NCBI GenBank assembly: GCA_017303755.1
Contig: JAFLBS010000001.1
Coordinates: 1 to 64,000, forward strand
From: Flavobacteriales bacterium
GTDB lineage: Bacteria > Bacteroidota > Bacteroidia > Flavobacteriales > Flavobacteriaceae
Direction of reading: 5' to 3'
Length of the DNA stretch: 64,000 bases
The translations under genes and the position numbers were made by a program. Positions 49,020 through 62,417 of this stretch are shown here, in pieces. Under the pieces are notes generated by a model. That model was not told where the DNA came from. It ran no database searches and worked only from the letters and a program-made list of their open reading frames with translations. Position 1 is the first letter of the stretch. Every line of letters begins with the position of its first letter.

Positions 49020-50057
49020 TTAATATTCGGCGAATTTAGGATTGGTCAAAAATTCGTTATCGGTTAAGGTGAACAGAAAAGCAATTAGTTTGGATTTTTC
49101 TGTTGTTGACAATGGAATTCCAAGTGTACCATTATTTAAACTTGGATCTAAGTTTTGCGTATTTACTACTCCAGAGCTGTAATGATTCAAGACCGCATCT
49201 AACGTATAAAATCGACCGTCGTGCATGTAAGGAGCGGTTTTTTCGATGTTGCGCAAACTCGGCACTTTGAATTTGTAGCGATCTTGTTCCAATTCGGTTA
49301 CGCGGTAACGACCAACATCATTGACACTTGGATTGATGGGTAAACCATTATTTCGAAACGAATTATCGGTAAAAATATCAGTAGCGTGGCACGAAGCGCA
49401 TTTTTGATTGAAAATAGCATAACCTTCCAACTCGTCTTGTGATAAGGTTCCACCCGATTCATTGCGACGGTATTTATCAAAACGCGAATTGCTTGAAGTA
49501 GCCATAACCATAAATTGGCCCAATGCTTTGAGCATATTTTCGGAATTGATTAAACCATCGGCAAAAGCTTGTTTGTAGAGTTTTTGATATTCGGCATCGT
49601 TTTTCATCATGTTGATGGCTGCCGTAAAATCGCCGTTCATTTCGATTGGGCTAGTAAATGGAATAATCGGTTGTAAATCGAGATGCGTTGTTGCTCCGTC
49701 CCACATAAAAGCGGTTTGGTACGCCAGATTTTGAATGGGCGGCGTGTTTCTGGTTCCGATGGCGTCACCAACGCCGTGACTTACGGAATGACCATGATGT
49801 GTAAAGGCATCTTCTTGAATGTGGCAAAAACCACAAGACACGATTCCGTCGGAAGCCAAACGACCATCGTAGAATAATTTTCTTCCGAGTTCGAATCCTT
49901 TTTCGGTAAGTGGATTATTGGCTAAGTTGTAGGCTAACGGCGGGAAATTACTCGGCACACGATAATCGATTGGAAGATTTTGGTATTCATCGGAATCGTC
50001 GTTAGAGCAACTCCAAAGAAAAGGAATAAGTACTAATGCATAGTGTAGTGTTTTCAT
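49020..50057 (-). CDS. Di-haem MbnH-like peroxidase (MauG/CcpA superfamily), lipoprotein
   Basis: The product is 345 residues with lipoprotein signal MKTLHYALVLIPFLWSC. Two haem c motifs are present: CGFCH near residue 75 and CASCH near 223. Family blocks include LGRKLFYDGRLASDGIVSC, GTRNTPPIQNLAY, MWDGATTHLD, FKVPSLRNIEKTAPYMHDGRF (haem ligand Met/His region) and LDAVLNHYSSG. In the MbnP/MbnH pair, MbnH oxidises a Trp of MbnP to kynurenine to build its copper site. The upstream mbnP homologue makes MbnH function more likely than a plain cytochrome c peroxidase. A structured element separates the two genes. Confidence 0.85.
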   Translation of the reverse strand: MKTLHYALVLIPFLWSCSNDDSDEYQNLPIDYRVPSNFPPLAYNLANNPLTEKGFELGRKLFYDGRLASDGIVSCGFCHIQEDAFTHHGHSVSHGVGDAIGTRNTPPIQNLAYQTAFMWDGATTHLDLQPIIPFTSPIEMNGDFTAAINMMKNDAEYQKLYKQAFADGLINSENMLKALGQFMVMATSSNSRFDKYRRNESGGTLSQDELEGYAIFNQKCASCHATDIFTDNSFRNNGLPINPSVNDVGRYRVTELEQDRYKFKVPSLRNIEKTAPYMHDGRFYTLDAVLNHYSSGVVNTQNLDPSLNNGTLGIPLSTTEKSKLIAFLFTLTDNEFLTNPKFAEY

Positions 50058-50071
50058 AAGCTGTTGTTTTT

Positions 50072-50214
50072 TAGCCCAGATAGTAATGAAAAGCCCGGAG
50101 CGCTTACACCTTTACCATTGCTGGCGAGAGAAAGCGACCAACGGAAGCTTGCTCTTGCCTTACAATGGTTGGTGTAAGAGCGAGGACTTGTAATGAATAG
50201 CTGGATGAGCTTCT
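50072..50214 (+). ncRNA. 143-nt structured element A (candidate RNA / structured repeat)
   Basis: It starts TAGCCCAGATAG and ends ATAGCTGGATGAGCTTCT. GCTTACACC pairs with GGTGTAAG, CCATTG with CAATGG, GGCGAGAG with CTCTTGCC (one G-U), and AGC/GCT closes the loop GACCAACGGA. It aligns gap-free with the element at 59645-59787: termini and apical loop are identical or nearly so, while the stem sequences differ. G-U pairs fall on the + strand, which would make it antisense to the operon. It fills the mbnP-mbnH spacer. Whether it is Rfam Flavo-1 or another family cannot be decided here. Confidence 0.65.
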
Positions 50215-50221
50215 AAAGAAA

Positions 50222-51007
50222 TTAATCGTTGTGAACGTGGTGTACTTCGAACATGTTAGCGATGTTAGCCGTAACCAAAGCCAATTTACTTCCGCCCATG
50301 ACCATTGCGCCATCAGTAAAATTGATTTTGTTCGTTCCATCAGGAAGTTGCGACAAATCGGCCATCAAGTGAATTTGCGGCGTTATTGTAGTACGCACCA
50401 AAGCTTTTTCAGGTAAGTTCACAGTAACTTCAGTGTAGTTGTAATCGGTTCCGGTTTGACCTGTGTGCAACATAAAAGTTGTATCAGTAGTAACGGTTGC
50501 TGAAGTGAAAGTTCCTTCTAAGGCTACAAATTTGTAACCTGCGCTCCATGACCACATCATTCCGGCTGCTTGCGCTTGCGTTAAGAAATCGCCTTGACCT
50601 GTAGCACCTAAATTGAATTGTGCTTGATCCACTCCGATTCCGAATTTAACTTTAGTGTAATTAGCAGCTGGAATGTTTGGTAAATTTAACAACGTAGAAG
50701 CGGCTGTTGCTTCGTCGATGATGAAGTAGCTTTGGCTTTTTGGCACAGTGTAAGTTGAACCGTCTTCTTTAGTTAAAACGATGTTACTTACGATGTATTT
50801 TGCTTTGGTAATTTTTACAGTTTCACCGTTTGAATTTACATACGCAGTGTTGAAAGCCAAATCGGCGTCTTTGTATACATTGTCGAATTCTAATTTTAAG
50901 TTTCCTTCTCCAGTGATTACTTCTGCTGGATCATCGTCGTTAGAACATGAAGAGAATGCGAAAGTGATTGCTAAAGCAGCAATTATAGTTTTTAATTGAA
51001 ATTTCAT
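50222..51007 (-). CDS. MbnP family copper-binding lipoprotein
   Basis: The product is 261 residues from MKFQLKTIIAALAITFAFSSC (lipoprotein signal). MbnP features: LKLEFDNVY start, the central block AAGMMWSWSAGYKFVALEG with the WSW motif whose Trp is the expected kynurenine precursor, TTFMLHTGQTG, and a metal-rich end (MFEVHHVHND). MbnP proteins bind copper once MbnH has modified the Trp. Many occur outside methanobactin operons, as here. The upstream in-frame ATG at 51070 is rejected because it adds residues before a clean signal peptide. The partner gene is next downstream. Confidence 0.85.
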   Translation of the reverse strand: MKFQLKTIIAALAITFAFSSCSNDDDPAEVITGEGNLKLEFDNVYKDADLAFNTAYVNSNGETVKITKAKYIVSNIVLTKEDGSTYTVPKSQSYFIIDEATAASTLLNLPNIPAANYTKVKFGIGVDQAQFNLGATGQGDFLTQAQAAGMMWSWSAGYKFVALEGTFTSATVTTDTTFMLHTGQTGTDYNYTEVTVNLPEKALVRTTITPQIHLMADLSQLPDGTNKINFTDGAMVMGGSKLALVTANIANMFEVHHVHND

Positions 51008-51170: not shown

Positions 51171-51548
51171 TTAAGAAATAAAAGTGGGCGGATGAAAAAC
51201 GGAACAACTGTTCAAGTGAAAGTAATGATTGGAATAGTTGTTTCCTACTAAGGAATTAGTATGAAAATAAATTTGTGACACGATAACGGGTTGAAGTTCT
51301 TGGTAAAACAAGACTTCGCTTTCGTGTTTGGAGTTATCTTTTTTATCGGAAGAAATGGGTTTTTCGTCTTCGGAAGCTTTGGCCAATTCTTTCATCAAAT
51401 GACATTTTCCGTTACATTTTAGCTCGGGTTTTTCTTTATTGATACAAAGTTCTTTGGAAATGTACTCATAATTCACCATATAGTCCAAAAACGGTAAAAC
51501 CGGTTTTAGAAGCATGACAAGTGACACAATGAATAACATCTTCTTCAT
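51171..51548 (-). CDS. Small secreted Cys/His protein with CNGKCHL motif (putative copper handling)
   Basis: The product is 125 residues. The hydrophobic N-terminus MKKMLFIVSLVMLLKPVLPF is a signal peptide or anchor. The conserved block is KELCINKEKPELKCNGKCHLMKELAK (Cys-x9-Cys-x3-Cys with His/Met), followed by a charged linker and a C-terminal His-rich strand ending SVFHPPTFIS. Homologues with the CNGKCxL and FHPP motifs are common in Flavobacteria, often near copper or cytochrome genes; none is characterised to my knowledge. First gene of the mbnP-mbnH operon. The -7 box ends 4 bp before this ATG, so the message is leaderless or the true start is the ATG at 51539. Confidence 0.7.
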   Translation of the reverse strand: MKKMLFIVSLVMLLKPVLPFLDYMVNYEYISKELCINKEKPELKCNGKCHLMKELAKASEDEKPISSDKKDNSKHESEVLFYQELQPVIVSQIYFHTNSLVGNNYSNHYFHLNSCSVFHPPTFIS

Positions 51549-51552
51549 GCAG

Positions 51553-51560
51553 CAAATTTA
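51553..51560 (-). promoter_or_regulatory. -7 box of the CNGKC-mbnP-mbnH operon
   Basis: TAAATTTG on the minus strand. Its last base lies 37.5 bp from the centre of the palindrome at 51583-51598, the same distance as for the divergent crp-type promoter. Confidence 0.65.
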
Positions 51561-51582
51561 GCATAAGAAATTGATAGTTTTG

Positions 51583-51598
51583 TATGATTTTGGTCATA
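51583..51598. promoter_or_regulatory. Operator copy 1 (TATGA-N6-TCATA), shared by two divergent promoters
   Basis: TATGATTTTGGTCATA has perfect 5-bp outer arms. Its centre is 37.5 bp from the ends of both divergent -7 boxes, which corresponds to about -41.5 for each, the class II activator position of Crp/Fnr proteins. Confidence 0.75.
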
Positions 51599-51620
51599 AT
51601 TTTAGTATTTTTATAAAAAC

Positions 51621-51628
51621 TAACTTTG
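51621..51628 (+). promoter_or_regulatory. -7 box of the Crp/Fnr-type regulator gene
   Basis: TAACTTTG matches TAnnTTTG. It overlaps the most upstream possible start codon (51626), which argues that translation begins at 51692 instead. Confidence 0.7.
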
Positions 51629-51691
51629 TATCATCAAGTTGTAAAGGCTTTAAAAACAAGCATTCCCAACTTAAATCACTCGGAATCAATC

Positions 51692-52279
51692 ATGCAAATA
51701 GATTTGGATTTACTCTTTACTTGGGGCGCAATTGCAAAAGAATATAAGAAAAATGACATCATTTTGCATGAGGATGAAACAGCCAACTTTTACTATCAAG
51801 TAATAGAAGGTTGTGTGCGAATGTTCAACTCCAATGACGACGGAAAGGAATTTACGCAGGGTTATTTTTGCAGTGGTCAAAGTTTTGGTGAACCGCCTTT
51901 GTTTATTGACGAAAAATATCCTGCAACTGCTGTTGCTTTTCAGGATTGCAAAATTATTAAGTTGTCAAAAGAGAAGTTCTTAAAGATTTTAGACGAATAT
52001 CCATCGATACAAAAACAATTTTTAAGACTGATGGCGCAACGCATTCACAGCAAAGCCAAAACCTCAAAAGACATTATCAATCAGAAACCTGAATTTAGAA
52101 TCATTGCGTTTTTAAATTCAAATAAAAAAGGAAACAGCAATGTAAAAGAATTGGTTCCATTTACACGTCAAGAAATTGCCAATTTCACTGGATTGCGAGT
52201 AGAAACCGTAATCAGAGCATTTGCCAAGATGAAAGCAAGTAAAAAAATCGATATTATCAATCATAAAATTTATTATTAG
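51692..52279 (+). CDS. Crp/Fnr family transcriptional regulator
   Basis: The product is 195 residues from MQIDLDLLFTWGAIAKEYKK. The cyclic-nucleotide-binding-like domain has FYYQVIEGCVRMFNSNDDGKEF and CSGQSFGEPPLFIDEKYPATAVA. The C-terminal winged HTH is FTRQEIANFTGLRVETVIRAFAKMKA. Its recognition helix has E-T-V-I-R where FNR has E-T-I-S-R; E and R contact the GA/TC core in FNR, consistent with the TGA half-site proposed here. The four-Cys Fe-S signature of FNR is absent, so it is not an oxygen sensor of that type; an NO or redox signal is possible. It probably activates itself and its neighbours. Confidence 0.88.
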   Translation: MQIDLDLLFTWGAIAKEYKKNDIILHEDETANFYYQVIEGCVRMFNSNDDGKEFTQGYFCSGQSFGEPPLFIDEKYPATAVAFQDCKIIKLSKEKFLKILDEYPSIQKQFLRLMAQRIHSKAKTSKDIINQKPEFRIIAFLNSNKKGNSNVKELVPFTRQEIANFTGLRVETVIRAFAKMKASKKIDIINHKIYY

Positions 52280-52280
52280 A

Positions 52281-53555
52281 ATGGTTTTTCGGAGTTCGTT
52301 TTGGCTCAAATTTTCATTAATTAATTTACTTATTGTGGCGTTGTTGGGATTGTTAATGCGCTATAAAATCGGGTTTGAGTTTCCGTTTTTTGATCAGAAA
52401 CACTTGCAACATTCCCATTCACACTTTGCTTTTTCGGGTTGGATCAGTCATACTTTGATGGTGCTGATGATTTTATATTTAGAGAAGAAAATAGTCCTTC
52501 GACATGCTCAGGATGACAAAAATAAAAAGAAAACACAGAATCAAATTTTAAAAAAATACAATTCCATTTTAATCGGCAATTTGATTTGTGCCTACGCAAT
52601 GTTAGTGTCGTTTATCATTCAAGGTTACGGATTGATTTCGATTGTTTTTTCTACTTCATCCATCGTAATTGCATTTGTATTTGCATACTTTTTCTTTCAG
52701 GATTTGAAACTGATTCCGAAAGAAGATGCATCGAAAAGCTGGTTTAAAGCAGCGCTTTTTTTCAATGTAATTTCGTCGCTGGGCACATTTGCTTTAGCGT
52801 ACATGATGATGACAAAAAACATTCATCAAAACGAATATTTAGCATCTATTTATTATTACTTGCATTTTCAATACAACGGCTGGTTTTTCTTTGCTTGCAT
52901 GGGTTTATTGATTTCTTTTTTACAACTAAAGGCTTCAGAAAACATCTTTTACTTCAGATCATTCTGGTGGTTTTTTGGTTCGTGTATTCCCGCTTATTTC
53001 CTATCAACACTTTGGTTAGAATTACCCATTTGGGTTTATAGTTTAACTGTAATTGCTGCTATAATTCAAGTGGCAACATGGTTTAAATTTTTAACCCTGA
53101 TTTTAAAAACCAAAAAGGCCTTTTTTGAAAACTTGCCGTTCTTTTTACACTATATTTTACTATTTGTTGGATTCGCTTTGAGTGTCAAATTCGTACTTCA
53201 ATTGGGTTCAACAATTCCGGCTTTGAGCAAACTAGCCTTTGGTTTTAGACCAATTGTAATAGCTTATTTGCACTTGGTTTTGCTTGCGATAATCACTTTG
53301 TTTTTGTTATTTTACATTTACGCCAATAATTTAATTCATAGTAATAAACCAATTAAAAAGGGTGTAATCATATTTTCAATTGGTGTGTTTTTAAACGAAA
53401 TTATTTTAGCTTTTCAAGGTATTGCTTCTTTCAGTTACACCATGATTCCGTGGATTAACGAGCTTCTTTTATTGGCCGCAATTGTCTTAGTAATTGGAAT
53501 TGCAATTACCACTTTCTTCTCTTTAAAAAAAGTTAAAAAGGATACTATTTTATGA
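52281..53555 (+). CDS. Polytopic membrane protein, haem-copper-oxidase subunit I-like
   Basis: The product is 424 residues with about 11-12 membrane helices. His residues lie in positions reminiscent of oxidase/NO-reductase subunit I: QHSHSHFAFSGWISHTLM (near 42-59), SIYYYLHFQYNGWFFFACMGL (near 190-210) and PIVIAYLHLVLLAIITLFLL (near 329-348). It lacks the full canonical set I would need to call NorB or CcoN. It starts 1 bp after the regulator stop, so it is one operon. Residues 72-81 (VLRHAQDDKN) in a cytosolic loop are encoded by a dispersed DNA repeat. Function is inferred to be NO or redox related from the neighbourhood. Confidence 0.65.
   Translation: MVFRSSFWLKFSLINLLIVALLGLLMRYKIGFEFPFFDQKHLQHSHSHFAFSGWISHTLMVLMILYLEKKIVLRHAQDDKNKKKTQNQILKKYNSILIGNLICAYAMLVSFIIQGYGLISIVFSTSSIVIAFVFAYFFFQDLKLIPKEDASKSWFKAALFFNVISSLGTFALAYMMMTKNIHQNEYLASIYYYLHFQYNGWFFFACMGLLISFLQLKASENIFYFRSFWWFFGSCIPAYFLSTLWLELPIWVYSLTVIAAIIQVATWFKFLTLILKTKKAFFENLPFFLHYILLFVGFALSVKFVLQLGSTIPALSKLAFGFRPIVIAYLHLVLLAIITLFLLFYIYANNLIHSNKPIKKGVIIFSIGVFLNEIILAFQGIASFSYTMIPWINELLLLAAIVLVIGIAITTFFSLKKVKKDTIL
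52496..52519. repeat. Dispersed CTTCGACATGCTCAGGATGAC repeat inside a coding sequence
   Basis: It matches the intergenic word at 34619-34642 (ATTCGACTGCGCTCAGGATGA...) and keeps the reading frame open, adding the peptide LRHAQDDK to a cytosolic loop of the membrane protein. Confidence 0.75.
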
Positions 53556-53566
53556 TTCCACTCATA
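53551..53566. promoter_or_regulatory. Operator copy 2 (TATGA-N6-TCATA) upstream of the fasciclin gene
   Basis: TATGATTCCACTCATA overlaps the stop of the preceding gene. Its centre is 36.5 bp before the last base of a weak -7 box (GTACTTTG, 53588-53595). The fasciclin ATG is at 53622. Confidence 0.7.
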
Positions 53567-53621
53567 AAATAACTACTTCATAATTAGGTACTTTGTGGTA
53601 AATAATCAAGTATCAATTATT

Positions 53622-54173
53622 ATGAAAAATTCAATTAAAACATTACTATTAGCTAGTTTGTTGGTTGTAATTGGTTGCAAACAAAATGAAGCTGCAACAA
53701 CAGAAGCAACAGCAACTACTGAAAAACAAGCTGGCGGACAAGAATCTGTGGTCGACGAAACTTCCGTTCCTAACATTGTACAAACTGCGGTTGCAAGTAA
53801 AGACCACACTACTTTGGTTACAGCAGTTAAAGCAGCAGGATTGGTTACCTCGTTGAGCAACGCCGGACCATTTACGGTTTTTGCACCAACAAATGCAGCT
53901 TTTGACAAATTGCCAGCAGGAACAGTTGAAGGATTGCTAAAACCTGAGAAAAAAGGTGATTTGGAAAACATTCTAGGCTATCACACTTACGTTGGAACAC
54001 TAAAAACCGATTATATGCAAGACGGACAAGAGTTTGATATGGTTTTTGGAGGAAAAGTAAAAATCACTAAAAAGGACGATAAAACGTATGTGAATGAATC
54101 TGAGATTGTAGCTTCAATTGAAACTGGAAACGGAATTATTCACGTAATTGGTGATGTTCTCTTACCCAAATAA
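53622..54173 (+). CDS. Fasciclin (FAS1) domain lipoprotein
   Basis: The product is 183 residues from MKNSIKTLLLASLLVVIGC (lipoprotein signal; the upstream TTG/GTG-type extension is rejected). A Thr/Ala-rich linker precedes one FAS1 domain (IVQTAVASKDHTTLVTAVKAAGL; GPFTVFAPTNAAFDKLPAGTVEGLL; LGYHTYVGTLKT; ETGNGIIHVIGDVLLPK). FAS1 domains mediate adhesion. Copies next to NO/denitrification genes are frequent in Flavobacteria and their role is not established. An operator of the proposed regulon lies upstream, so it is probably induced together with ric and nosZ. Confidence 0.88.
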   Translation: MKNSIKTLLLASLLVVIGCKQNEAATTEATATTEKQAGGQESVVDETSVPNIVQTAVASKDHTTLVTAVKAAGLVTSLSNAGPFTVFAPTNAAFDKLPAGTVEGLLKPEKKGDLENILGYHTYVGTLKTDYMQDGQEFDMVFGGKVKITKKDDKTYVNESEIVASIETGNGIIHVIGDVLLPK

Positions 54174-54208
54174 TTATTATTAATTCAGTTGTTTTTCTTT
54201 TAAGAAAG

Positions 54209-54239
54209 AAAGGCGTGAATTGTCGTAATTCACGCCTTT
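54209..54239. terminator. Bidirectional terminator between the fasciclin gene and ric
   Basis: A perfect 13-bp stem, AAAGGCGTGAATT/AATTCACGCCTTT, with a 5-nt loop and a following T-run. Confidence 0.92.
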
Positions 54240-54244
54240 TTCAA

Positions 54245-54976
54245 TTACTCTAAAACGGTAAATCGTTGTTCCAATTCTTTCGCTTTATGAAACAAAATGT
54301 TGTTTTCTAAATGAATGTGCTTGTGCAAATCCTGCTCGTATTCTTTGAGCATGGCAAAAGTCACTTTGTAGGTTTGACAAGCGTCTATTGGCGGATTATA
54401 TTCGTTGCTCAACTCTGAAATTTTTGCAAACAAATTACCTTCGGTTTCGTGATCGTGTTGTAATACTGCAATCGGATTATCAACGGTTCCGAAACCTGGT
54501 TGTTGAATCGTTTCATGATTTTTGATAGCATCCGACATCGTTTTAATAAACGGAAATAGTATTATTTCTTCTTTTTGCAAATGATTGAGTAATTCGGCTG
54601 CACTGATTTTAAATAAATTATTGATTTCAAATAATTCGGGATGCCTTTCACCATGAACCTTACAAAGTTTATCGAGGTACGTCAATAAAATTGGTGTTTT
54701 TTCTTGAATGTAATCGTGATGTGTTTCTAAAATGTAGTCGATTAACAAACTTGGTGAAAAAGATTTAAAATCCATTTCAGAGGAAGAATTAGATTCTAAA
54801 ACAACATTGATTTCGTCTTCTATTTGTTGTACATTCAATCCTTTCGCTTCACAAACTTCGCTTAAGGTTTTATTGCCTTTACAGCAAAAATCAATTTTGT
54901 ATTTTGAGAAAAGAGCAGCAGTTCTGAAGTCGTGTGCTACAAATTCTCCGATTGTGGTTTCGTCTAATGCGTTCAT
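54245..54976 (-). CDS. ric: Iron-sulfur cluster repair di-iron protein Ric (ScdA/YtfE family)
   Basis: The product is 243 residues. The N-terminal ScdA_N/DUF542 domain has TIGEFVAHDFRTAALFSKYKIDFCCKGNKTLSEVC with the Cys-Cys pair near residue 31. The C-terminal hemerythrin-like domain has di-iron His/Glu residues in LETHHDYIQEK, HGERHPELFE, LLNHLQKEEIILFPF, LQHDHETEGNLFAKI and LHKHIHLENNILFHK. Ric repairs Fe-S clusters damaged by NO and oxidative stress. Its promoter carries the same operator at the same spacing as the nosZ operon, in keeping with NO-responsive control. Confidence 0.95.
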   Translation of the reverse strand: MNALDETTIGEFVAHDFRTAALFSKYKIDFCCKGNKTLSEVCEAKGLNVQQIEDEINVVLESNSSSEMDFKSFSPSLLIDYILETHHDYIQEKTPILLTYLDKLCKVHGERHPELFEINNLFKISAAELLNHLQKEEIILFPFIKTMSDAIKNHETIQQPGFGTVDNPIAVLQHDHETEGNLFAKISELSNEYNPPIDACQTYKVTFAMLKEYEQDLHKHIHLENNILFHKAKELEQRFTVLE

Positions 54977-54993
54977 ATTCTTTAAATTTTACT

Positions 54994-55001
54994 CAAAAGT
55001 A
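54994..55001 (-). promoter_or_regulatory. -7 box of ric
   Basis: TACTTTTG on the minus strand, 17 bp before the ATG at 54976. The operator centre is 36.5 bp upstream of its last base. Confidence 0.7.
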
Positions 55002-55022
55002 TTCTAAAGTAGAATCAAAAAA

Positions 55023-55038
55023 TATGAGTTAAATCATA
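55023..55038. promoter_or_regulatory. Operator copy 3 (TATGA-N6-TCATA) upstream of ric
   Basis: TATGAGTTAAATCATA. It lies in the 68-bp gap between the CopD-like gene stop and the ric start. Confidence 0.75.
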
Positions 55039-55044
55039 AACCAA

Positions 55045-55488
55045 CTACAAGCCACCAATTCGAAACAAACTACCTAAAACTACCATTGTGACAGCTATTA
55101 ATGTTACAACCGTGATGAGTAAATACAATAAAGTTGTAGGTTTATCTTGAAGTTTTGGGAACATAAATTTAACTGCTGAAATTGCCATCATAATTGAAAA
55201 AATTAGCAATAGTAACTTAATGCTAATTACTTTTTCGATTGGATTTTGGAATGAAAACCACAGGTCAATTGAAACACCGAAATCATACGACATAATGATT
55301 CCTGTAATCAACAAAACGATTAGCGATGGAATTCCGACAGGTTCAAAATTTTTTCTAAAAAAAGAAATTTCGTCTAACTTTTTGGTCCTGATCGCTTTTG
55401 GAACGTAGCGTAACAATAAAATTAAATGACCGCCAACCCAAATGGTGGCAGCCAGTAAATGCAATAGTAAAACCAGATGATGCTTCAT
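55045..55488 (-). CDS. CopD-like four-helix membrane protein
   Basis: The product is 147 residues with four predicted helices. The start MKHHLVLLLHLLAATIWVGGHLILLLRYVPKA carries His residues in and before helix 1 (LLLHLLAATIWVGGHL), a pattern of the CopD/DUF2269 membrane-cytochrome-like superfamily. Helix 2 is SLIVLLITGIIMSYDFG. Its ATG overlaps the haemoglobin stop (ATGA), so it is coupled to the nos operon. Copper import or haem binding is possible; neither is proven by the sequence. Confidence 0.65.
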   Translation of the reverse strand: MKHHLVLLLHLLAATIWVGGHLILLLRYVPKAIRTKKLDEISFFRKNFEPVGIPSLIVLLITGIIMSYDFGVSIDLWFSFQNPIEKVISIKLLLLIFSIMMAISAVKFMFPKLQDKPTTLLYLLITVVTLIAVTMVVLGSLFRIGGL

Positions 55489-55859
55489 GAAGACAACGTT
55501 TTATACATCATTGCAGCCGAAATATTCAATGCTCTATTTTTGATTTCTTCTGCTTTTTTTCCTTGAAATAATTCGTCAACCGTTTGAATAAACAACTGAT
55601 TCCAATGGTCGAAATGGGTTTTGGTCATTGTACTTTTTTGATGCAATTCTTTGTGTTTTACCATTGGATTTCCCTCATAATTTGCCGAAAAAAACAAGAT
55701 ATTCTCCCAAAAATCATACATCTTTGGCAAATGCAATTCCCAATTGACTTTGGCAACATCAGTAAACAAATAACCAATCACCTCGTCAGTTTTGACTTTA
55801 TCGTAAAACGTATTTACTAATTTTTCAATATCCTTTCGGTGTCTGATGTCGGTTTTCAT
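55485..55859 (-). CDS. Group III truncated haemoglobin
   Basis: The product is 124 residues. It shows the short globin fold of group III: IRHRKDIEKLVNTFYDKV, LHLPKMYDFWENILFFSANYEGNPMVKHKELH (distal pocket Tyr/Trp and CD region), and TKTHFDHWNQLFIQTVDELF, with the proximal His in HFDHW or HKELH. Group III globins are implicated in NO or oxygen chemistry. It follows nosY by 3 bp and is coupled to the CopD-like gene by ATGA. Confidence 0.9.
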   Translation of the reverse strand: MKTDIRHRKDIEKLVNTFYDKVKTDEVIGYLFTDVAKVNWELHLPKMYDFWENILFFSANYEGNPMVKHKELHQKSTMTKTHFDHWNQLFIQTVDELFQGKKAEEIKNRALNISAAMMYKTLSS

Positions 55860-55862
55860 TTT

Positions 55863-56630
55863 TTACAAATCTTTTTTGTTGAACTTTTTTAATGATGTAA
55901 TAAATGGTAGTATTGCCCACAAAGCTAATAATCCAAAAGAAACAATTAATCCGAGCGACGTTCCGAAAAAATCTTTGAAAATTGCTCCAGTATAACCCAT
56001 CATAGCAGAAACATCAAGATGCAATAGAATTTGTATTCGAGCTAAATCAATAGGACTCAAAGCAGTCATTCCTACCATAGCATTCTCGATCGGATAATCT
56101 TGAAATTGAAACAATAAAAACAAAACCAATCCGTCAAAAATTAGAGCAAAAAATAGCCATGTCATTATAGCTATTCCTATTCCTTTGGCTTTATCGCGAG
56201 TTACTATTGAACTTAAAAATGCCAAAGCGGTAAAAATGACGCTGATTAAACATCCTATAGCAATCATCATAAAACCGACACTATCAAATGAGTTGAGTAA
56301 TAACGGGATTCCTGCTCCAATAAAAAAGGCAAAAATCATAGAAAGTGAAAGCCCGAGAAACAAACTGATCCAGATTTTTTTCCTTTTGACGGGTTGACTC
56401 AACAAAAGTTCAATGAACTCGGCACTGTTGTACAAATAGATTGTTGCAAAAAGAATTGAAACCAATGGAACTGTAAATAGAATCACGTTTAATACCGTTA
56501 AAATCCCTTTAGAAGAATTGTCTTCTAAGGCAAATGAACTCCACGACAGTACAGCCAAAACCAAAGTATACGCAATAACAATTTTGCTTTTGAGAATGTC
56601 AAGTAGTATTATTTTGATGATTCGGTTCAT
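55863..56630 (-). CDS. nosY: NosY-type ABC transporter permease
   Basis: The product is 255 residues with about six helices (IVIAYTLVLAVLSWSSFAL; ILTVLNVILFTVPLVSILFATIYLY; IWISLFLGLSLSMIFAFFIG; MIAIGCLISVIFTALAFLSSIV; ITSLKKF end). The NosY hallmarks LLLSQPVKRKKIWISLFLG and SSIVTRDKAKGIGIAI are present. With NosF and NosD it matures the CuZ centre of N2O reductase, probably supplying sulfur. ATGA overlap with nosF. Confidence 0.92.
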   Translation of the reverse strand: MNRIIKIILLDILKSKIVIAYTLVLAVLSWSSFALEDNSSKGILTVLNVILFTVPLVSILFATIYLYNSAEFIELLLSQPVKRKKIWISLFLGLSLSMIFAFFIGAGIPLLLNSFDSVGFMMIAIGCLISVIFTALAFLSSIVTRDKAKGIGIAIMTWLFFALIFDGLVLFLLFQFQDYPIENAMVGMTALSPIDLARIQILLHLDVSAMMGYTGAIFKDFFGTSLGLIVSFGLLALWAILPFITSLKKFNKKDL

Positions 56631-57370
56631 GATACAATTTTGAGTTTCAAGTTTCGCGTTTCAGGTTGTTTTTGCTTTAGAATACTAGCAATGGCTTTTG
56701 AAATTTTGTCTTCGTTGGTTTCTTTTTTTAAATCGGCTACTTTTTTATGAAAATGGACTTCTCCTTCTTGCATGAAAATGATTTCAGTGATTAAATCATC
56801 TAATTCACTTAACAAATGCGAGGTAATCAGTATTAGTTTTCCTTTTTGTTTTTCTTTGATGATTTTTTCCTTCAAAATCTCAGAAGCTAACGGATCTAAA
56901 CCTGCCGTTGGTTCATCTAAAATCAACACATCTGGATTAAATAAAAAAGCCAAAACGGCGCTTATTTTTTGTGTAGTTCCACCCGAAAGTGTTCGCATGG
57001 GTTTATCAAACATTTTTTCAATTTCAAAAGCATGGAGCAAATCTTCGTCTAACGTTTGGTTTGTATTTCTAATTTTTTTAATCATATCGATGATTTGCCC
57101 AATGGTCATGTGATCTGGGTAACGACCAATTTGTGGCATATAGCCGATGTTTTCGCGGTATAAATGTTCTCCTATGACTGATTTCCCATTGAACTCAATT
57201 TCACCACTATCGGGCAAAACCATGCCCAGTATTGATTTTATTAGAGTCGTTTTTCCGCAGCCATTCGGACCGATTAAAGCAATACATTCGCCTTTATCAA
57301 AGGTGAGATTGATGTTTTTTAAGACGTGTTGTTTCCCGAATTTTTTTTCAATATTTTTTACATTTATCAT
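56627..57370 (-). CDS. nosF: NosF-type ABC transporter ATP-binding protein
   Basis: The product is 247 residues. Walker A GPNGCGKTTLIKSIL (near 33), Q-loop YMPQIGRYPDHM, signature LSGGTTQKISAVLAF, Walker B VLILDEPTAGLDP, and switch His in LITSHLLSELD. It energises NosY. The last residues (PETRNLKLKIVS) are encoded by a copy of the CCTGAAAC..CTTGAAAC dispersed repeat, so the C-terminal tail looks acquired from a repeat. Overlaps both nosD and nosY by ATGA. Confidence 0.94.
   Translation of the reverse strand: MINVKNIEKKFGKQHVLKNINLTFDKGECIALIGPNGCGKTTLIKSILGMVLPDSGEIEFNGKSVIGEHLYRENIGYMPQIGRYPDHMTIGQIIDMIKKIRNTNQTLDEDLLHAFEIEKMFDKPMRTLSGGTTQKISAVLAFLFNPDVLILDEPTAGLDPLASEILKEKIIKEKQKGKLILITSHLLSELDDLITEIIFMQEGEVHFHKKVADLKKETNEDKISKAIASILKQKQPETRNLKLKIVS
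56642..56665. repeat. CCTGAAACGCGAAACTTGAA-type repeat forming the 3' end of nosF
   Basis: On the minus strand it reads CCTGAAACGCGAAACTTGAA plus CTC, the same word as the intergenic array at 45933-45961, and is translated as PETRNLKL. Confidence 0.7.
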
Positions 57371-58599
57371 AAGTGCAGTGACTTCATTAAAGGCGTTTTA
57401 TCTATAAAATTATCTGGAGTGATACTCGGCAATACTTTTTCTGATTTATCCAAAAGTGTAATCATAAAACTTCTATACAACAACATAGCTGAAGGTGTTT
57501 TCTCGGTCAAAACAGCAAACAAACTCAACGGATGATACGGCACATCACCAACTCCATTTTTATCCAAATCATAACCTTCGTATTTGTCCCAATAATTACT
57601 GTTGAAGGTGTTTAAAACCAAACTTCCATTGGTACTGATATCGAAAGTATTTTTAAGATAATTATTGTTTACAATTTCGTTTTCCATGCAACTGGCTTGA
57701 ATTTTCATTCCCCAACCATTGGATTCAAATACGTTTTTTTCGACTTTAATGCGCGATGTTCCTTCCATGTAAATTCCGGATGTATTTCGGGCAAATTTGT
57801 TGTTAAAAATATAACTGTCTGCGATTTCTTTGAGTAATAATCCGTAGGCTGAGTCGCCCCAATTTTCTTCAAAATAATTATTGAACATTTTGACGTTTTT
57901 GGTAAACATCACTGCCACACCAGCGCCATTATTTTTGAATACGTTAGTGATATAGGAATCGTCGTTGGAAAACATAAAATGCAAACCATAGCGAATGTTC
58001 TTGTTGGAAATATTGCGCCAAATAATGGATTGCGTTACAAATTCGAAATAAATACCATCGCGATGACCTGTTATTTTATTAGCTGTTATTTGCAGATTAT
58101 CGCATTTCCAGCAATGAATTCCGTTGCCAATGAGTTGTTCTTGCTTACCGTAAGCGCGAATTACGTTGTTTTTAACGATGCAGTTTCTACTGTTTTGCAG
58201 ATAAATTCCGAAGAAATTATTGTCGAGACTATTGTTTTCTATGCGAACAAATGATTTGTCGTAGACTTTGATTCCGCAAGGATCATCAAGTGAAGCATAA
58301 CCCGAATTGATGATTTTAAAACCTTTCACCACAACACTATCCGCATTTATGGAAACAACTTCAAATTGGCGTTGACCATCGAGAATCGGTTGGTTTTTGC
58401 CTAAAAAAACAATTCTCTTATTGATTAGAATATTGCCTTCTTTATACGTTCCTGAGTATACAATAATGGTATCGCCATGAACCGCAACTTCGAGTGCTTG
58501 CTTGATTTTTTTGCATTGAAATTGATTTCCAACTGGAATGGTTTTAGCATTAACAGAAGAAATCAGGAAAAAATACACTATAACGATTAGTCTTTTCAT
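57367..58599 (-). CDS. nosD: NosD, periplasmic copper-centre maturation protein
   Basis: The product is about 410 residues from MKRLIVIVYFFLISSVNA (signal peptide). The body is a right-handed beta-helix of parallel repeats (NNSLDNNFFGIYLQNSRNCIVKNNVI, NNKFARNTSGIYMEGTSRIKVEKNVF, and others), preceded by GDTIIVYSGTYKEGNI and ended by SNYWDKYEGYDLDKNGVGDVPYHP, the NosD signature. The ATG at 58599 overlaps the nosL stop (ATGA) and is preferred over the upstream one at 58626. It works with NosFY to assemble the CuZ site of NosZ. Confidence 0.95.
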   Translation of the reverse strand: MKRLIVIVYFFLISSVNAKTIPVGNQFQCKKIKQALEVAVHGDTIIVYSGTYKEGNILINKRIVFLGKNQPILDGQRQFEVVSINADSVVVKGFKIINSGYASLDDPCGIKVYDKSFVRIENNSLDNNFFGIYLQNSRNCIVKNNVIRAYGKQEQLIGNGIHCWKCDNLQITANKITGHRDGIYFEFVTQSIIWRNISNKNIRYGLHFMFSNDDSYITNVFKNNGAGVAVMFTKNVKMFNNYFEENWGDSAYGLLLKEIADSYIFNNKFARNTSGIYMEGTSRIKVEKNVFESNGWGMKIQASCMENEIVNNNYLKNTFDISTNGSLVLNTFNSNYWDKYEGYDLDKNGVGDVPYHPLSLFAVLTEKTPSAMLLYRSFMITLLDKSEKVLPSITPDNFIDKTPLMKSLHL

Positions 58600-59021
58600 T
58601 GGTACGAATTGAAAACTTGTTCCCAAGTCATTGTCTCAGCTTGTAACAGTTTTTGATATTCTCTTTGAATGATTTCTGATGAGAAAGCGGCACAATTGCC
58701 TCGCATAGGAGAATTAATGGTTCCGCCTTTTAAGAAGAAACTACTCTCTGCGGGAATTAGATTGTTATCTTTTACATAATCGCTTACAAAATAGAATTGG
58801 GTTGGTACGACACTTGATTTTGAAAACTGAATCATGCAAGACACATCATCAAATTTGTAGTGACGTCCTTTTTGGGTGATTAATTCGGCTCCGAATTTTC
58901 CGTTGGCGATGGTCATTTTACAGAAATCGCACGTATCGGAATTGAGTTTTATGGGTTTGGGTTCGTTGGAACTGCACGACACCAAAAGTAAAATAGGTAC
59001 TAATGAAAGAATTGATTTCAT
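58596..59021 (-). CDS. nosL: NosL, outer-membrane/periplasmic copper chaperone lipoprotein
   Basis: The product is 141 residues with lipoprotein signal MKSILSLVPILLLVSC. The copper motif is SDTCDFCKMTIANGKFGAELI (Cys-x2-Cys-x-Met, near residues 30-36), followed by GRHYKFDDVSCMIQF. The Cys/Met motif is the site known to bind Cu(I) for delivery to NosZ. It overlaps the 199-residue membrane protein gene upstream and nosD downstream by 4 bp each. Confidence 0.94.
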   Translation of the reverse strand: MKSILSLVPILLLVSCSSNEPKPIKLNSDTCDFCKMTIANGKFGAELITQKGRHYKFDDVSCMIQFSKSSVVPTQFYFVSDYVKDNNLIPAESSFFLKGGTINSPMRGNCAAFSSEIIQREYQKLLQAETMTWEQVFNSYQ

Positions 59022-59617
59022 GATTCGCTTATTTTCTTTTTATTGAATAAATTGAATTCTTTGTAAACGATAAAAAACAATAAAACTCCACACGCAGTCA
59101 AAAGCCATCCGCCAGTATCAGGAATCGAATAAGCTCCGAAGTTTAGTAATTGTTTATAGCCAATTAACGGCGGTTGATACGCCATTCCGGGAACTTTTAT
59201 GGCCGCATTGGGATCAAGATTGTGACCGTATTCGTAATTCCAGCGGTAAAAATCGATAGCAGCTAGAACCACAAAAACGATATAAAAAATAAAGAATGCT
59301 AGCACCGCTTTTCTTTTGGCGATAAAGAACAACATCAATGAGATGAGAGCAAAACCACCAAAAACATAAGGTAATACTGTAAACTCAAAAAAGTTTTCGG
59401 TGTGTAAAGTTGCCATTCCGATGTAGTGATTGAGACCGTTGATGATTTCTACATCGCCGCCAATTTTGTTAGCGTGTAGTCGGAGTACTAAACCTTCGGG
59501 ATATTGTGGAGCTTCGAGTTGGATTTGCCAAAGAGGAACAAAAAGTGAACCTAAAAATAAGGCAGCAATTATCAATAACATCACTTTGGACAGTATTGAA
59601 ATAGTTGTTTTTTTCAT
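59018..59617 (-). CDS. Four-helix membrane protein of the nos operon
   Basis: The product is 199 residues. Helix 1 is VMLLIIAALFLGSLFVPLW; then a periplasmic segment (QLEAPQYPEGLVLRLHANKIGGDVEIINGLNHYIGM) with His residues; helices ENFFEFTVLPYVFGGFALISLMLFF, AVLAFFIFYIVFVVLAAIDFYRW; an exposed loop with PGMAYQPPLIGYKQL; and a last helix (GGWLLTACGVLLFFIVY). Homologues are a regular part of Bacteroidota nos clusters next to nosZ/nosL. It may be the equivalent of NosB of clade II clusters, but I cannot confirm this. First gene after the structured element, coupled to nosL. Confidence 0.75.
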   Translation of the reverse strand: MKKTTISILSKVMLLIIAALFLGSLFVPLWQIQLEAPQYPEGLVLRLHANKIGGDVEIINGLNHYIGMATLHTENFFEFTVLPYVFGGFALISLMLFFIAKRKAVLAFFIFYIVFVVLAAIDFYRWNYEYGHNLDPNAAIKVPGMAYQPPLIGYKQLLNFGAYSIPDTGGWLLTACGVLLFFIVYKEFNLFNKKKISES

Positions 59618-59644
59618 TACTTTTTTTATTAGTATTGGGATGTC

Positions 59645-59787
59645 TAGCCCAGATAGCAGTGGAAAGCCTTTTGAAGAGGAAAACCAATTTTTGTTGTTTT
59701 TAAAGAGCGACCAACGGAAGCTTTTTAAAAGCGTACAAAAATGGTTTGAAGCAAAAAAGCTTGGAACGTATAGCTGGATTAGCTTCT
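59645..59787 (+). ncRNA. 143-nt structured element B (candidate RNA / structured repeat)
   Basis: It starts TAGCCCAGATAGCAGTGGAAAGCC and ends ATAGCTGGATTAGCTTCT, in gap-free register with element A at 50072-50214. AAACCAATTTTTGT pairs with ACAAAAATGGTTT (one bulge) and TTTTAAAGAGC with GCTTTTTAAAA (one G-U), exposing the same loop GACCAACGGA at the same offset (61 nt). The stems differ from A yet still pair, indicating selection on structure. It fills the gap between nosZ and the downstream nos genes, on the strand opposite to them. Confidence 0.65.
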
Positions 59788-59795
59788 TGAAAAAG

Positions 59796-59828
59796 AAACC
59801 TACAAGGTTATAAAAACCTTGCAGGTTT
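59796..59828 (-). terminator. Terminator after nosZ
   Basis: A 14-bp stem (one mismatch), AAACCTACAAGGTT/AACCTTGCAGGTTT, with a 5-nt loop. A TTTCTTTTTC tail follows on the minus strand. It would limit readthrough from nosZ into the accessory nos genes. Confidence 0.85.
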
Positions 59829-59836
59829 TGAATAAT

Positions 59837-61813
59837 TTATTTGGTTGCTTTTGGCAAATTGGTTCCTAAACTAAACGTTAAAGGAACGCTGCTTCCAGCT
59901 GGAGAAACACGGACGTAGCCTTGCATTTCTTGGTGTAACGCGCTACAGAAATCGGTGCAATACATTGGGAACATTCCTACTCTATTGGGAACCCATTTGA
60001 GAGTTGTTGTTTCACCTGGCATGATTAAAAGTTCGCCGTTGTCGACACCTTTGATGGCAAAACCGTGAGGAACATCCCAATCTTGTTCGAGGTTGGTGAC
60101 GTGAAAATATACTTCATCTCCAATTTTTATACCTTCAATATTATCGGGAGCAAAGTGTGAACGAATGGATGTCATGTACACGTGAACTTGATTTCCTTGA
60201 CGTACTACTTTGGCGTCTTTTTCGCCTTTTGCAACGTATGGATGTTGGTTATCGGCAATTTTATAGAATTTAAGTTGACCATTGTTTCGAATTAGATCGG
60301 CTGGTGCTGCTTGTGCGTAATGCGGTTCACCGATGGTTGGAAAATCGAGAATCATTTCCATTTTATCGCCACTGATGTCGAATATTTGAGCTGATTGTGC
60401 TAATTCTGGACCTGTTGGCAAATATCTGTCTTTAGTAATTTTGTTGTAGGCAACTAGATATTTTCCGAATGGTTTTTTAGAATCACCACCAGGAATACAC
60501 AAGTGACCTACTGAATAATACGTCGGTGCTCTATCGAGAACTTTAAGCGATTTAATATCCCATTTTACTATTTCAGACGATACAAAGAATGTGGTGTATG
60601 CGTTTCCTTTACCATCGAATTCGGTGTGTAATGGACCTAAACCTGGTTTTTGAACTTCACCATGAAGAGCTGCTTCGTATTTTACTACGTTGATTCCGCC
60701 GTAATTTCCATCGAATTTTTTACTTTGGATGGCAGACATTAATTTATCGAAACTAAAAACCGGAATTAAAGCAGCTAATTTTCCTGAACCTACAATGTAT
60801 TCACCAGTTGGATCAACGTCGCAACCGTGTGGCGATTTTGGACATGGAATCATATAACAAATGTCTTTCAGTTCGGCAGCATCAAGTACAAGAACTTCAG
60901 TTTTGATTTCAGATTTTCCGGTATGTGTTTTTTCATTCCAAGTGTTGTGAGCATAACGTACGGCTTGTTTTTTGGCTTTGCCAGCTTTCAGGTATTCTTC
61001 AGCTTTTTTCCAATTGACAGCCATGATGAAATCTTTGTCTTTTTGAGAAGCGTTAACTTCCAATAAGGTATTGGCTTGCTCGGTATTGTAACATGAGAAG
61101 AAGAACCAACCGTGTGATTTACCTTTTCCTGCGTGAGAAAGGTCGAAGTTTACACCAGGAGTTACAATTTGAAATGCCAAATCCATTTCGCCTTCTTTAC
61201 CCACTTTTACAAAACTAATGTGACCTTTAAAGTTTTCTTTATAGGTATTGATGGCTACATCTCCATTAGAATAATCGGCTGGCACACTAAAACGAGTTCC
61301 CGCAACAACGTATTCTGTATTTTCTGTGATGAATGGAGAAGAGTGATTTCCACCACTATTGGGTAATTCTATGATTTCGGCTGTTTTGAATGTTTTCAGA
61401 TCGATACGAGCAATACGTGGTGTATTGTTTGCATTACCAAAAACCCAACGACCGTCAACTTCACCGTTGGTTTGTGATAATTCGGTATGGTGCAAATCAT
61501 CCCAAGGCACAAAACCATGAGACGTGTTTAACATTGGTTTGGTTTCTTCGCTGTAACCCCAACCTTTTTCGGGATCAACTGAAAAAACGGGAATAACTCT
61601 GAATAATCTTCCGCTCGGAAGTCCGTAAACGCTTAACTGACCACTAAAACCACCTGAAACAAAGTTATAAAACTCGTCGTATTTTCCGGGTGCTACGTAG
61701 GCTTTTTCGGCATTACCCGTAGCCGCATCACTCGAATTTTTAGGTTTACACGATTGTAATAATCCAACAACTAGTGCAACAACTACTGTTGCTTGTACAA
61801 ATTTGATTTTCAT
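59837..61813 (-). CDS. nosZ: Nitrous-oxide reductase, clade II
   Basis: The product is 658 residues; it reduces N2O to N2 in the cell envelope. The N-terminus MKIKFVQATVVVALVVGLLQSC is a Sec/lipoprotein-type signal with no twin arginine, the mark of clade II. CuZ His residues are seen in WDDLHHTELSQTNG (near 110), LSHAGKGKSHGWFF, CPKSPHGCDVDPTG, GPLHTEFDGKG, YSVGHLCIPGGD and GEPHYAQAAPADL. The C-terminal cupredoxin has the CuA motif MYCTDFCSALHQEMQG (near 612-627), preceded by VPHGFAIKG. All expected ligands appear intact. It follows a cytochrome c gene and precedes the maturation genes. Confidence 0.98.
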   Translation of the reverse strand: MKIKFVQATVVVALVVGLLQSCKPKNSSDAATGNAEKAYVAPGKYDEFYNFVSGGFSGQLSVYGLPSGRLFRVIPVFSVDPEKGWGYSEETKPMLNTSHGFVPWDDLHHTELSQTNGEVDGRWVFGNANNTPRIARIDLKTFKTAEIIELPNSGGNHSSPFITENTEYVVAGTRFSVPADYSNGDVAINTYKENFKGHISFVKVGKEGEMDLAFQIVTPGVNFDLSHAGKGKSHGWFFFSCYNTEQANTLLEVNASQKDKDFIMAVNWKKAEEYLKAGKAKKQAVRYAHNTWNEKTHTGKSEIKTEVLVLDAAELKDICYMIPCPKSPHGCDVDPTGEYIVGSGKLAALIPVFSFDKLMSAIQSKKFDGNYGGINVVKYEAALHGEVQKPGLGPLHTEFDGKGNAYTTFFVSSEIVKWDIKSLKVLDRAPTYYSVGHLCIPGGDSKKPFGKYLVAYNKITKDRYLPTGPELAQSAQIFDISGDKMEMILDFPTIGEPHYAQAAPADLIRNNGQLKFYKIADNQHPYVAKGEKDAKVVRQGNQVHVYMTSIRSHFAPDNIEGIKIGDEVYFHVTNLEQDWDVPHGFAIKGVDNGELLIMPGETTTLKWVPNRVGMFPMYCTDFCSALHQEMQGYVRVSPAGSSVPLTFSLGTNLPKATK

Positions 61814-61873
61814 AATATATTGAAATTGAAAAACGGTTTATTGCTTTCACCCAATAAACTATTTTGGTTGTTT

Positions 61874-62344
61874 TTATTTTACTCCATCATTTTTACGCAT
61901 GTATTCAAGAATATTTCTGGCTTCATCATCTGCTAGCCCTTGATTTGGCATACGAACTAGGCATATTTCTAATTGCGCTTGCACTTCGGGATCTTTTTCA
62001 ATCATTGGATCGGGATTGGTGATGAAATTCATAATCCATTCTGGTTTCCTTCTTTCGGTTACGCCTTTCCAACCTGGTCCAACTAATTTTTCATCCGTCA
62101 TTTTGTGACAAGAAGTACATTTTACGCCAGCAACATCTTCACCTTTTGTAGCCATTGCTTGATCTAAAGTGGCTCCGAGTTCTACTGTAGAATATTTTCC
62201 TTCACCTCTTTTTGGGTCATAATCAGAAGGGTTTGAAGAACTTTCTTCAGTTGTTGGTTTAGAAAAATCGTCGCTAGAGTTTTCTTTCTTTCCACAAGCA
62301 AAGAATAACGCTAATGAAAGGAGTAGTAAAATTGATTTGTTCAT
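61874..62344 (-). CDS. Mono-haem cytochrome c lipoprotein
   Basis: The product is 156 residues with lipoprotein signal MNKSILLLLSLALFFAC, an acidic Ser-rich linker to about residue 50, a single CTSCH haem motif at 76-80 and a likely axial Met in RMPNQGLADDEARNILEYM. The conserved GPGWKGVTERRKPEWIMNFI segment is usual for this class. It is the first gene of the nosZ transcript and the likely electron donor to NosZ; clade II clusters often carry such cytochromes. The operator and -7 box are directly upstream. Confidence 0.9.
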   Translation of the reverse strand: MNKSILLLLSLALFFACGKKENSSDDFSKPTTEESSSNPSDYDPKRGEGKYSTVELGATLDQAMATKGEDVAGVKCTSCHKMTDEKLVGPGWKGVTERRKPEWIMNFITNPDPMIEKDPEVQAQLEICLVRMPNQGLADDEARNILEYMRKNDGVK

Positions 62345-62371
62345 GATTTTATTTGTTAAAAATTTCTATCA

Positions 62372-62379
62372 CAAATTTC
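62372..62379 (-). promoter_or_regulatory. -7-like box of the cytochrome c-nosZ operon
   Basis: GAAATTTG on the minus strand (consensus TAnnTTTG, first base off). The operator centre is 37.5 bp upstream of its last base. Confidence 0.55.
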
Positions 62380-62401
62380 TGAATAAGAAGAGGTTGATAT
62401 T

Positions 62402-62417
62402 TATGATTGAAATCATA
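62402..62417. promoter_or_regulatory. Operator copy 4 (TATGA-N6-TCATA) upstream of cytochrome c-nosZ
   Basis: TATGATTGAAATCATA is a perfect 7-bp inverted repeat around GA and the most symmetric of the four copies. It resembles an FNR box (TTGAT-N4-ATCAA) with the first base changed. Confidence 0.78.

Follow-up and report, generated by a model that had tools for sequence, protein, structure and literature searches.

A predicted operator shared by a Crp/Fnr regulator gene and the nos-cluster promoters of a Flavobacteriales bacterium

The first 64,000 nucleotides of contig JAFLBS010000001.1 from a Flavobacteriales bacterium (assembly GCA_017303755.1; hereafter the window) carry a nos cluster, including the nitrous-oxide reductase gene nosZ, beside the gene for a Crp/Fnr regulator at 51692-52279. 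We consider it likely that this protein is an activator that binds a predicted operator, TATGAYT-NN-ARTCATA, in the class II position and so switches the promoters of the nos cluster, and it is probably responsive to nitric oxide (NO). An initial annotation had proposed a variant half-site of Crp/Fnr type, TATGA-N6-TCATA, common at class II-like spacing to the regulator and nos-cluster promoters, and the loci of relatives support that proposal. Comparison across genomes shows the candidate operators, their spacing, their targets and their co-occurrence with the regulator; binding and activation by the regulator we infer.

Operators and promoter spacing in the window

Scanning the window recovered four exact copies of TATGA-N6-TCATA, at 51583, 53551, 55023 and 62402, where the initial annotation had placed them, and, in agreement with it, no further copies, either exact or with one mismatch. 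At up to one mismatch, shuffled sequences held a mean of 3.53 copies and 46 shuffles held at least four, so the count is unremarkable at that tolerance; it is notable because all four copies are exact. The operators and the promoter elements beside them are as follows (bp, base pairs).

51583..51598, operator 1, TATGATTTTGGTCATA; centre 51590.5, common to two divergent promoters
53551..53566, operator 2, TATGATTCCACTCATA; fasciclin promoter
55023..55038, operator 3, TATGATTTAACTCATA on the minus strand; ric promoter
62402..62417, operator 4, TATGATTTCAATCATA on the minus strand; cytochrome c-nosZ promoter
51621..51628, plus strand, -7 element TAACTTTG; regulator promoter, 37.5 bp from the centre of operator 1
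51553..51560, minus strand, -7 element TAAATTTG; divergent promoter, 37.5 bp from the centre of operator 1
53589..53595, plus strand, -7-like element TACTTTG; fasciclin promoter, 36.5 bp from the centre of operator 2
54994..55001, minus strand, -7 element TACTTTTG; ric promoter, 36.5 bp from the centre of operator 3
62372..62379, minus strand, -7-like element GAAATTTG; cytochrome c-nosZ promoter, 37.5 bp from the centre of operator 4

The first TGA of operator 2 doubles as the stop codon of the upstream gene for a 424-amino-acid protein (stop ending at 53555).

Measured from the operator centre to the last G of TTTG, the distances of 36.5 or 37.5 bp claimed for the five promoters hold throughout, and it is from this fixed spacing that placement near -41.5 is predicted. 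The -7-type boxes described at all five do share a constant TTTG, but two of them depart from the canonical TAnnTTTG. By chance, TTTG would stand at one or other of the two gaps in five or more of the eight operator orientations with a probability of 1.5e-7.

In the mechanism that we propose, the regulator, a dimer by analogy, would bind TATGAYT-NN-ARTCATA; the operator would take the place of a -33 element and the regulator would contact RNA polymerase in the class II manner. Operator 1 would serve both the regulator's own promoter and a 125-amino-acid gene heading a copper-linked operon, and operators 2-4 would switch on the fasciclin gene, ric and the cytochrome c-nosZ pair. At cbb3-oxidase promoters, identical outer arms enclosing A at position 7 and T at position 10 (A7/T10) in place of T7/A10 would be read by an Fnr-like paralogue.

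Conservation in relatives

Scanning named genomes for the regulator yielded 61 loci. We used 60 of them, which have 60-88% identity and are for the most part titled Flavobacterium and otherwise metagenome-assembled genomes (MAGs), and excluded L074 (Parvimonas, 27% identity) from all counts. Some of the 60 are short, and a gene missing from a locus is not necessarily missing from the genome. One contig titled as a Bifidobacterium breve MAG (L029) holds a Flavobacterium-type nos regulator locus and is probably misbinned or mislabelled.

Across the 1.126 Mb of these loci we detected 158 exact sites, against a mean of 8.1 for 30 anagram palindromes (TATGA included), the next highest of which reached 20. 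The spacer was equally specific: a length of 6 gave the 158 sites, whereas any other length from 0 to 14 gave at most 7.

For promoter counts, the best site in the 200 bp upstream of each orthologue was taken, the window was counted as one row, and rows whose 200 bp ran off the locus were dropped (1 regulator, 3 ric, 1 cytochrome c, 3 nosZ, 2 nosD and 1 lysS). Exact sites stood upstream of the regulator in 46 of 60 rows, the 125-amino-acid gene in 34 of 43, the fasciclin gene in 47 of 56 (plus nine with one mismatch), cytochrome c-nosZ in 29 of 31 (plus two) and ric in 16 of 20 (plus four). They were absent upstream of nosD (34 rows), nosL (34), nosZ itself (31), copD (12) and lysS (8), and preceded the globin gene of the nos cluster in 1 of 36 rows; the 424-amino-acid gene had no upstream site in any of 60 rows even with one mismatch allowed, and positions 100-300 of the 12 genes tested held no exact site. 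TTTG occurred at a gap of 25 in 109 and of 26 in 66 of 316 orientations (175/316), whereas other gaps averaged 2.0; of the 158 sites, 136 had it at a gap of 25 or 26 on one side or both, 39 of them on both. Thus, the conservation in relatives that the initial annotation had named as a test is present, in sites as well as spacing, at orthologous promoters.

The regulator, an Fnr-like paralogue and the inner bases

In the genome of the window, the ccoN and ccoI genes adjoin a gene for an Fnr-like protein (P0002, N-terminus MSSKCEQC) and carry sites with the same outer arms and the same geometry, that of ccoI with one mismatch. Because the outer arms also occur at these cbb3-oxidase sites, TATGA-N6-TCATA as written is not diagnostic of the regulator: the variant half-site proposed in the initial annotation is supported at the regulator's own and nos-cluster promoters, but its outer arms are shared with the cbb3-oxidase promoters. 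Sites picked blind to their inner bases indicate that positions 7 and 10 largely separate the two predicted types. Position 7 was A in 27/27 ccoI/fnr sites (27 of 30 loci parsed) and T in 31/31 cytochrome c, 55/56 fasciclin and 20/20 ric sites, while position 10 was T in 24/27 of the former and A in 31/31, 51/56 and 18/20 of the latter. The recognition helices differ as well, TGLRVETVIR being found in all 71 regulator rows (61/61 of clade I, 3/3 of clade II and 7/7 of clade III) and in 0/3 Fnr-like rows, all three of which have IGTATESCIR.

Site types also followed the regulator across 149 Flavobacterium genomes (homologue cut-off E <= 1e-20). Of the 84 with a regulator homologue, 74 had a T7/A10 promoter site, as against 2 of the 65 lacking a homologue. 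An Fnr-like protein (E <= 1e-60) was found in 139 of the 149, and A7/T10 sites in 99 of these against 1 of the 10 Fnr-negative genomes; they were somewhat commoner with the regulator (66/84) than without it (34/65). The 10 genomes with neither protein had A7/T10 in one and T7/A10 in none. Order-wide, 50 of the 68 homologue-bearing genomes and 3 of the other 128 had T7/A10 sites; with the window's genus and a family of tiny genomes set aside, the figures were 34 of 51 and 3 of 74.

Several observations weigh against the proposed mechanism. The genomes are related, and Fisher values drawn from counts such as 74/84 and 2/65 therefore overstate independence; in ten of the 84 genomes with a homologue no T7/A10 promoter site was found, and such sites occur without a detected regulator in G038 and G041. 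The regulator's own promoter is looser than the others (position 7 T in 45/53 and A in 5/53; position 10 A in 26, G in 19 and T in 8 of 53), and in L068, L070 and L071 it carries a Fnr-type A7/T10 site, with one mismatch in L071, so that Fnr may act there. Canonical TAnnTTTG is found at only 3/56 fasciclin and 3/31 cytochrome c sites. Throughout the 4.07-Mb genome of the window the bare motif shows no enrichment (13 places against 11 for a reversed control pattern), which counts against its specificity as written. Of the eight oriented placements in this genome of the exact motif with TTTG at gap 25 or 26, three precede genes other than nos genes: ccoN, identified by family match, and two that we take from their sequences to be a CoA-transferase-like and a SulP-like transporter gene. 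Finally, two of the three promoter-positioned sites outside the cluster have mixed inner bases.

The same scan has a second side. The other five spaced placements lie in the nos cluster. The genome-wide test named in the initial annotation gave a mixed outcome, with the bare motif at chance and the spaced one specific; of the bare motif's nine places outside the cluster, five fall inside open reading frames (ORFs), one overlaps an ORF start and three are promoter-positioned. Four of the 13 places fall within 10.9 kb, a region chosen after the fact, where 0.035 would be expected at genome-wide density (Poisson P(>=4) = 5.9e-8). The promoter-positioned sites with mixed inner bases, at L098 5109 and L097 4848 in our own-genome set, lie before the CoA-transferase-like and SulP-like genes.

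Among alternatives, it is possible, though we lean away from it, that both proteins act at the nos promoters, the Fnr-like one for low oxygen and the regulator for NO or nitrous oxide (N2O), by competition or in a cascade. The shared outer arms and the mixed inner bases at regulator promoters (G or T at position 10 in 27 of 53 rows) are consistent with such dual control, as are the A7/T10-type regulator promoters of the three loci named above; the near-complete separation of inner bases at structural-gene promoters speaks against it. These Fnr-type sites (L068 ~9935, L070 ~9938 and L071) belong to distant clade I-like regulators, and they suggest a cascade from Fnr to the nos regulator.

A less probable version would leave the local regulator incidental and have the Cys-motif paralogue beside ccoI/ccoN bind the nos operators. 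That protein has the same E-x-x-I-R helix pattern, is nearly ubiquitous in the genus, has TATGA-N6-TCATA sites of the same geometry, and could read the A7/T10-type regulator promoters; yet of the 55 genomes that hold it and lack the regulator, 33 have an A7/T10 site and two a T7/A10 site, and the bases at position 7 divide almost completely between ccoI/fnr and nos-cluster sites. As sole reader of the nos sites the paralogue is thus disfavoured by the 149-genome table.

We also find it unlikely that the operators are repressor sites. A protein bound across the -33 region could keep polymerase out, but the phase to the -7 element is strict, single sites serve divergent promoter pairs with matching geometry on either side, and no TTG -33 element was noticed by eye after the operators among the rows listed from relatives, a pattern like that of class II activation. 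That the palindromes arose by chance in AT-rich intergenic DNA, as the near-control genome-wide count of the bare motif might suggest, is refuted by the conservation at orthologous promoters, the fixed spacer and the fixed TTTG distance across the 60 loci, and we regard it as extremely improbable.

The regulator protein

Matches to PF00027 (2.8e-21), PF13545 (4.2e-8) and PF00325 (6.3e-6), all above cut-off, place the regulator in the Crp/Fnr superfamily. Its predicted structure is CRP-type (mean predicted local distance difference test score, pLDDT, of 88) and its best fold matches are CRP chains. Escherichia coli CRP matches it with a Foldseek E of 4e-15, but with a TM-score of 0.51 and a root-mean-square deviation of 12, so the two domains are set differently from those of CRP; the NCBIfam CRP model gave 60.2 bits against a cut-off of 266. 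The cAMP-contacting pair R82-S83 of CRP aligns with Y76-P77 of the regulator, and Y76 is invariant in 45 rows. Of the 61 clade I rows, one has a Cys within the first 15 amino acids, and no Cys is among the near-invariant positions of that clade. Since the Arg-Ser pair is replaced by Tyr-Pro and the N-terminal Cys cluster of FNR is absent, neither cAMP nor a Fnr-type cluster is likely. As regards NO activation through haem, the mode of DNR and NnrR, no His is among the invariant or 90% positions of the 45 rows; H191 is near-invariant in clade I only.

The E-T-V-I-R reported in the initial annotation lies in the helix TGLRVETVIR, whose E171, T172, I174 and R175 are invariant in the 45 rows, another family included. 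The regulator resembles E. coli CRP in the spacing of its site (TGTGA-N6-TCACA in CRP) and in an E-T-V-x-R helix, with A here and G in CRP as the second base of the half-site. It resembles E. coli FNR in its predicted class II spacing and in a V before the helix Glu and differs from it in lacking the N-terminal Cys cluster and in its operator, the conserved sequence here being TATGA-N6-TCATA and not the TTGAT-N4-ATCAA of FNR and DNR. We divided the homologues by identity into clades I (about 60-100%), II (53-55%) and III (32-47%), the partial G090 being put in II. In a tree built without proteobacterial DNR or NnrR, clades I and II grouped together (97/96), L071 was placed with II, and III was unresolved.

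Genes of the locus

The genes around the operators are listed by coordinate.

49020..51004, minus strand, mbnP and mbnH (MauG-type), downstream and lineage-specific; Pfam MbnP 6.4e-48, CCP_MauG 3.3e-48
51171..51548, minus strand, 125-amino-acid protein bearing Cys and His, first gene of the divergent promoter; no family match
51692..52279, plus strand, Crp/Fnr regulator, 195 amino acids, helix TGLRVETVIR; Pfam cNMP_binding 2.8e-21, HTH_Crp_2 4.2e-8
52281..53555, plus strand, 424-amino-acid protein behind the regulator; no family match, no operator of its own
53622..54173, plus strand, fasciclin-domain protein; Pfam Fasciclin 4.3e-30
54245..54976, minus strand, ric/ytfE, di-iron protein for iron-sulfur repair (NO stress); TIGR03652, 231.9 bits, cut-off 204.7
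55045..59617, minus strand, CopD-like (weak), Bac_globin, nosY/nosF-type ABC membrane protein and ATPase, nosD, nosL and a 199-amino-acid protein; no operators of their own
59837..61813, minus strand, nosZ, Sec-dependent (clade II) nitrous-oxide reductase; TIGR04246, 923 bits, cut-off 625
61874..62344, minus strand, cytochrome c protein, first gene before nosZ; Pfam Cytochrom_C 5.3e-7

For the regulator, a start at ATG 51692 is more likely than one at TTG 51626, because the latter falls inside the -7 box. Within 55045..59617 the Pfam matches were Bac_globin (5.6e-7), ABC2_membrane_2, ABC_tran, NosD (3.5e-34) and NosL (1.9e-8); that to CopD, at 23 bits, is under its cut-off of 32.1, and no family was assigned to the 199-amino-acid protein.

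Two promoter assignments in the initial annotation need adjusting. The promoter at 62402, given as that of nosZ, would drive the cytochrome c gene first, with nosZ behind it, and the minus-strand promoter at 51553, given to mbnP/mbnH, has the 125-amino-acid gene first, with mbnP/mbnH downstream. A gene for a small protein without a Pfam match lies at 62506-62940, divergent from the nosZ operator; orthologues of operator 4 are 102-172 bp upstream of a small gene of this type in 16 of 17 loci, and in the window TTTG stands toward it at a gap of 22, not 25 or 26.

Targets in relatives, copper and the signal

The mbnP/mbnH genes, placed in the regulon by the initial annotation, lie downstream in the operon here; they were rejected as a conserved divergent target, being found in only 4 of 60 loci, in favour of the 125-amino-acid gene, which is present in 42. 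Its product has a conserved PxLxCxGKCHL-type motif with no family match, and the operon genes downstream vary between species. All 11 other loci examined have the 125-amino-acid gene followed by proteins of 278-303 and 661-708 amino acids (a twelfth, L045, gave no match to the 125-amino-acid gene); in L025, the sole locus tested, these were YtkA-like and TonB-copper-like (TIGR01778, 116 bits, below its cut-off of 472). Since the enzyme NosZ contains copper, the divergent operon is probably linked to it through copper supply.

Elsewhere, T7/A10 sites precede flavohaemoglobin genes in L108, L109 and L112 (by family match) and L104 (by resemblance), as well as a small membrane-type protein and globin directly behind clade III regulators in L099-L103, where the globin family match was checked in L099 only. 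One bidirectional T7/A10 operator in L115 faces norC/norB-type genes one way and ric (by family match) the other; the NorC/NorB labels are presumptive, the family match of the large subunit being COX1. In another family, T7/A10 sites lie before the nos clusters of L179-L181. Our best guess for the signal is NO (or N2O), because in relatives norCB-type, flavohaemoglobin and globin genes stand behind this operator too.

Other results count against this reading. At nirK (TIGR02376) in L115, the site departs from the motif by one mismatch and combines inner bases of both types (T7/T10). Islands in a second family (L175-L178 and L182-L186) combine similar regulators and mostly T7/A10 sites with catalase HPII and Ku genes, which look like stress genes, marking the operator type as wider than nitrogen oxides. 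A NorB search of the window's own genome, run without a control, gave no match, and a flavohaemoglobin search gave only reductase-domain matches and no orthologue; the NO reading hence rests on ric, the globin gene and the relatives. The signal here may be NO from neighbours, or N2O. The island regulators have TGL[RC]VET[VAT]IR-type helices, several of them in adjacent pairs.

Known systems and significance

DNR in Pseudomonas and NnrR in alpha-proteobacteria are Crp/Fnr-family regulators of nir, nor and nos genes (PMC1274295), and sites at genes of these kinds were found here too, at cytochrome c-nosZ, the norCB-type genes of L115 and, with a mismatch, nirK. The DNR and NnrR operators, CTTGATnnnnATCAAG and ctTTGcgnnnncgCAAag, differ from TATGAYT-NN-ARTCATA, and "Flavobacter" does not occur in the main text of that source (PMC1274295). 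The same text describes HcpR2, a Crp/Fnr protein linked to nitrogen oxides and present in Bacteroides, that differs in its target, hcp, and its motif, GTAACnnnnGTTAC (PMC1274295). In Wolinella succinogenes, of a different phylum, the Crp/Fnr proteins NssA, NssB and NssC are tied to clade II nosZ; the Nss-type consensus, TTGA-N6-TCAA, has the same 6-bp spacer and a half-site differing by one base (TTGA for ATGA) (PMC11539149). Crp/Fnr homologues of Flavobacteriales have been filed near MalR (PMC8510549). Searches of an open-access library gave no paper for the TATGA-N6-TCATA motif, and among the papers that they listed we saw no regulator or operator described for nosZ of Bacteroidota.

A wider picture, which we hold to be about evenly poised, is that one genus has two paralogous Crp/Fnr regulators whose sites share all 10 outer bases and their place in the promoter, and that a single symmetric inner pair, T7/A10 for nitrogen oxides and A7/T10 for oxygen, separates them, matching the helices TGLRVETVIR and IGTATESCIR. 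The nos regulator would then be a dedicated Bacteroidota switch coupling N2O respiration to copper uptake, for which the signal here may be the NO of neighbours or N2O.

Bacteroidota with clade II nosZ are regarded as N2O sinks and as candidates for cutting farm emissions. With operator, regulator and target list defined, experiments can address the control of this N2O sink directly, and the inner base pair is a clear example of how paralogous regulators might avoid cross-talk.

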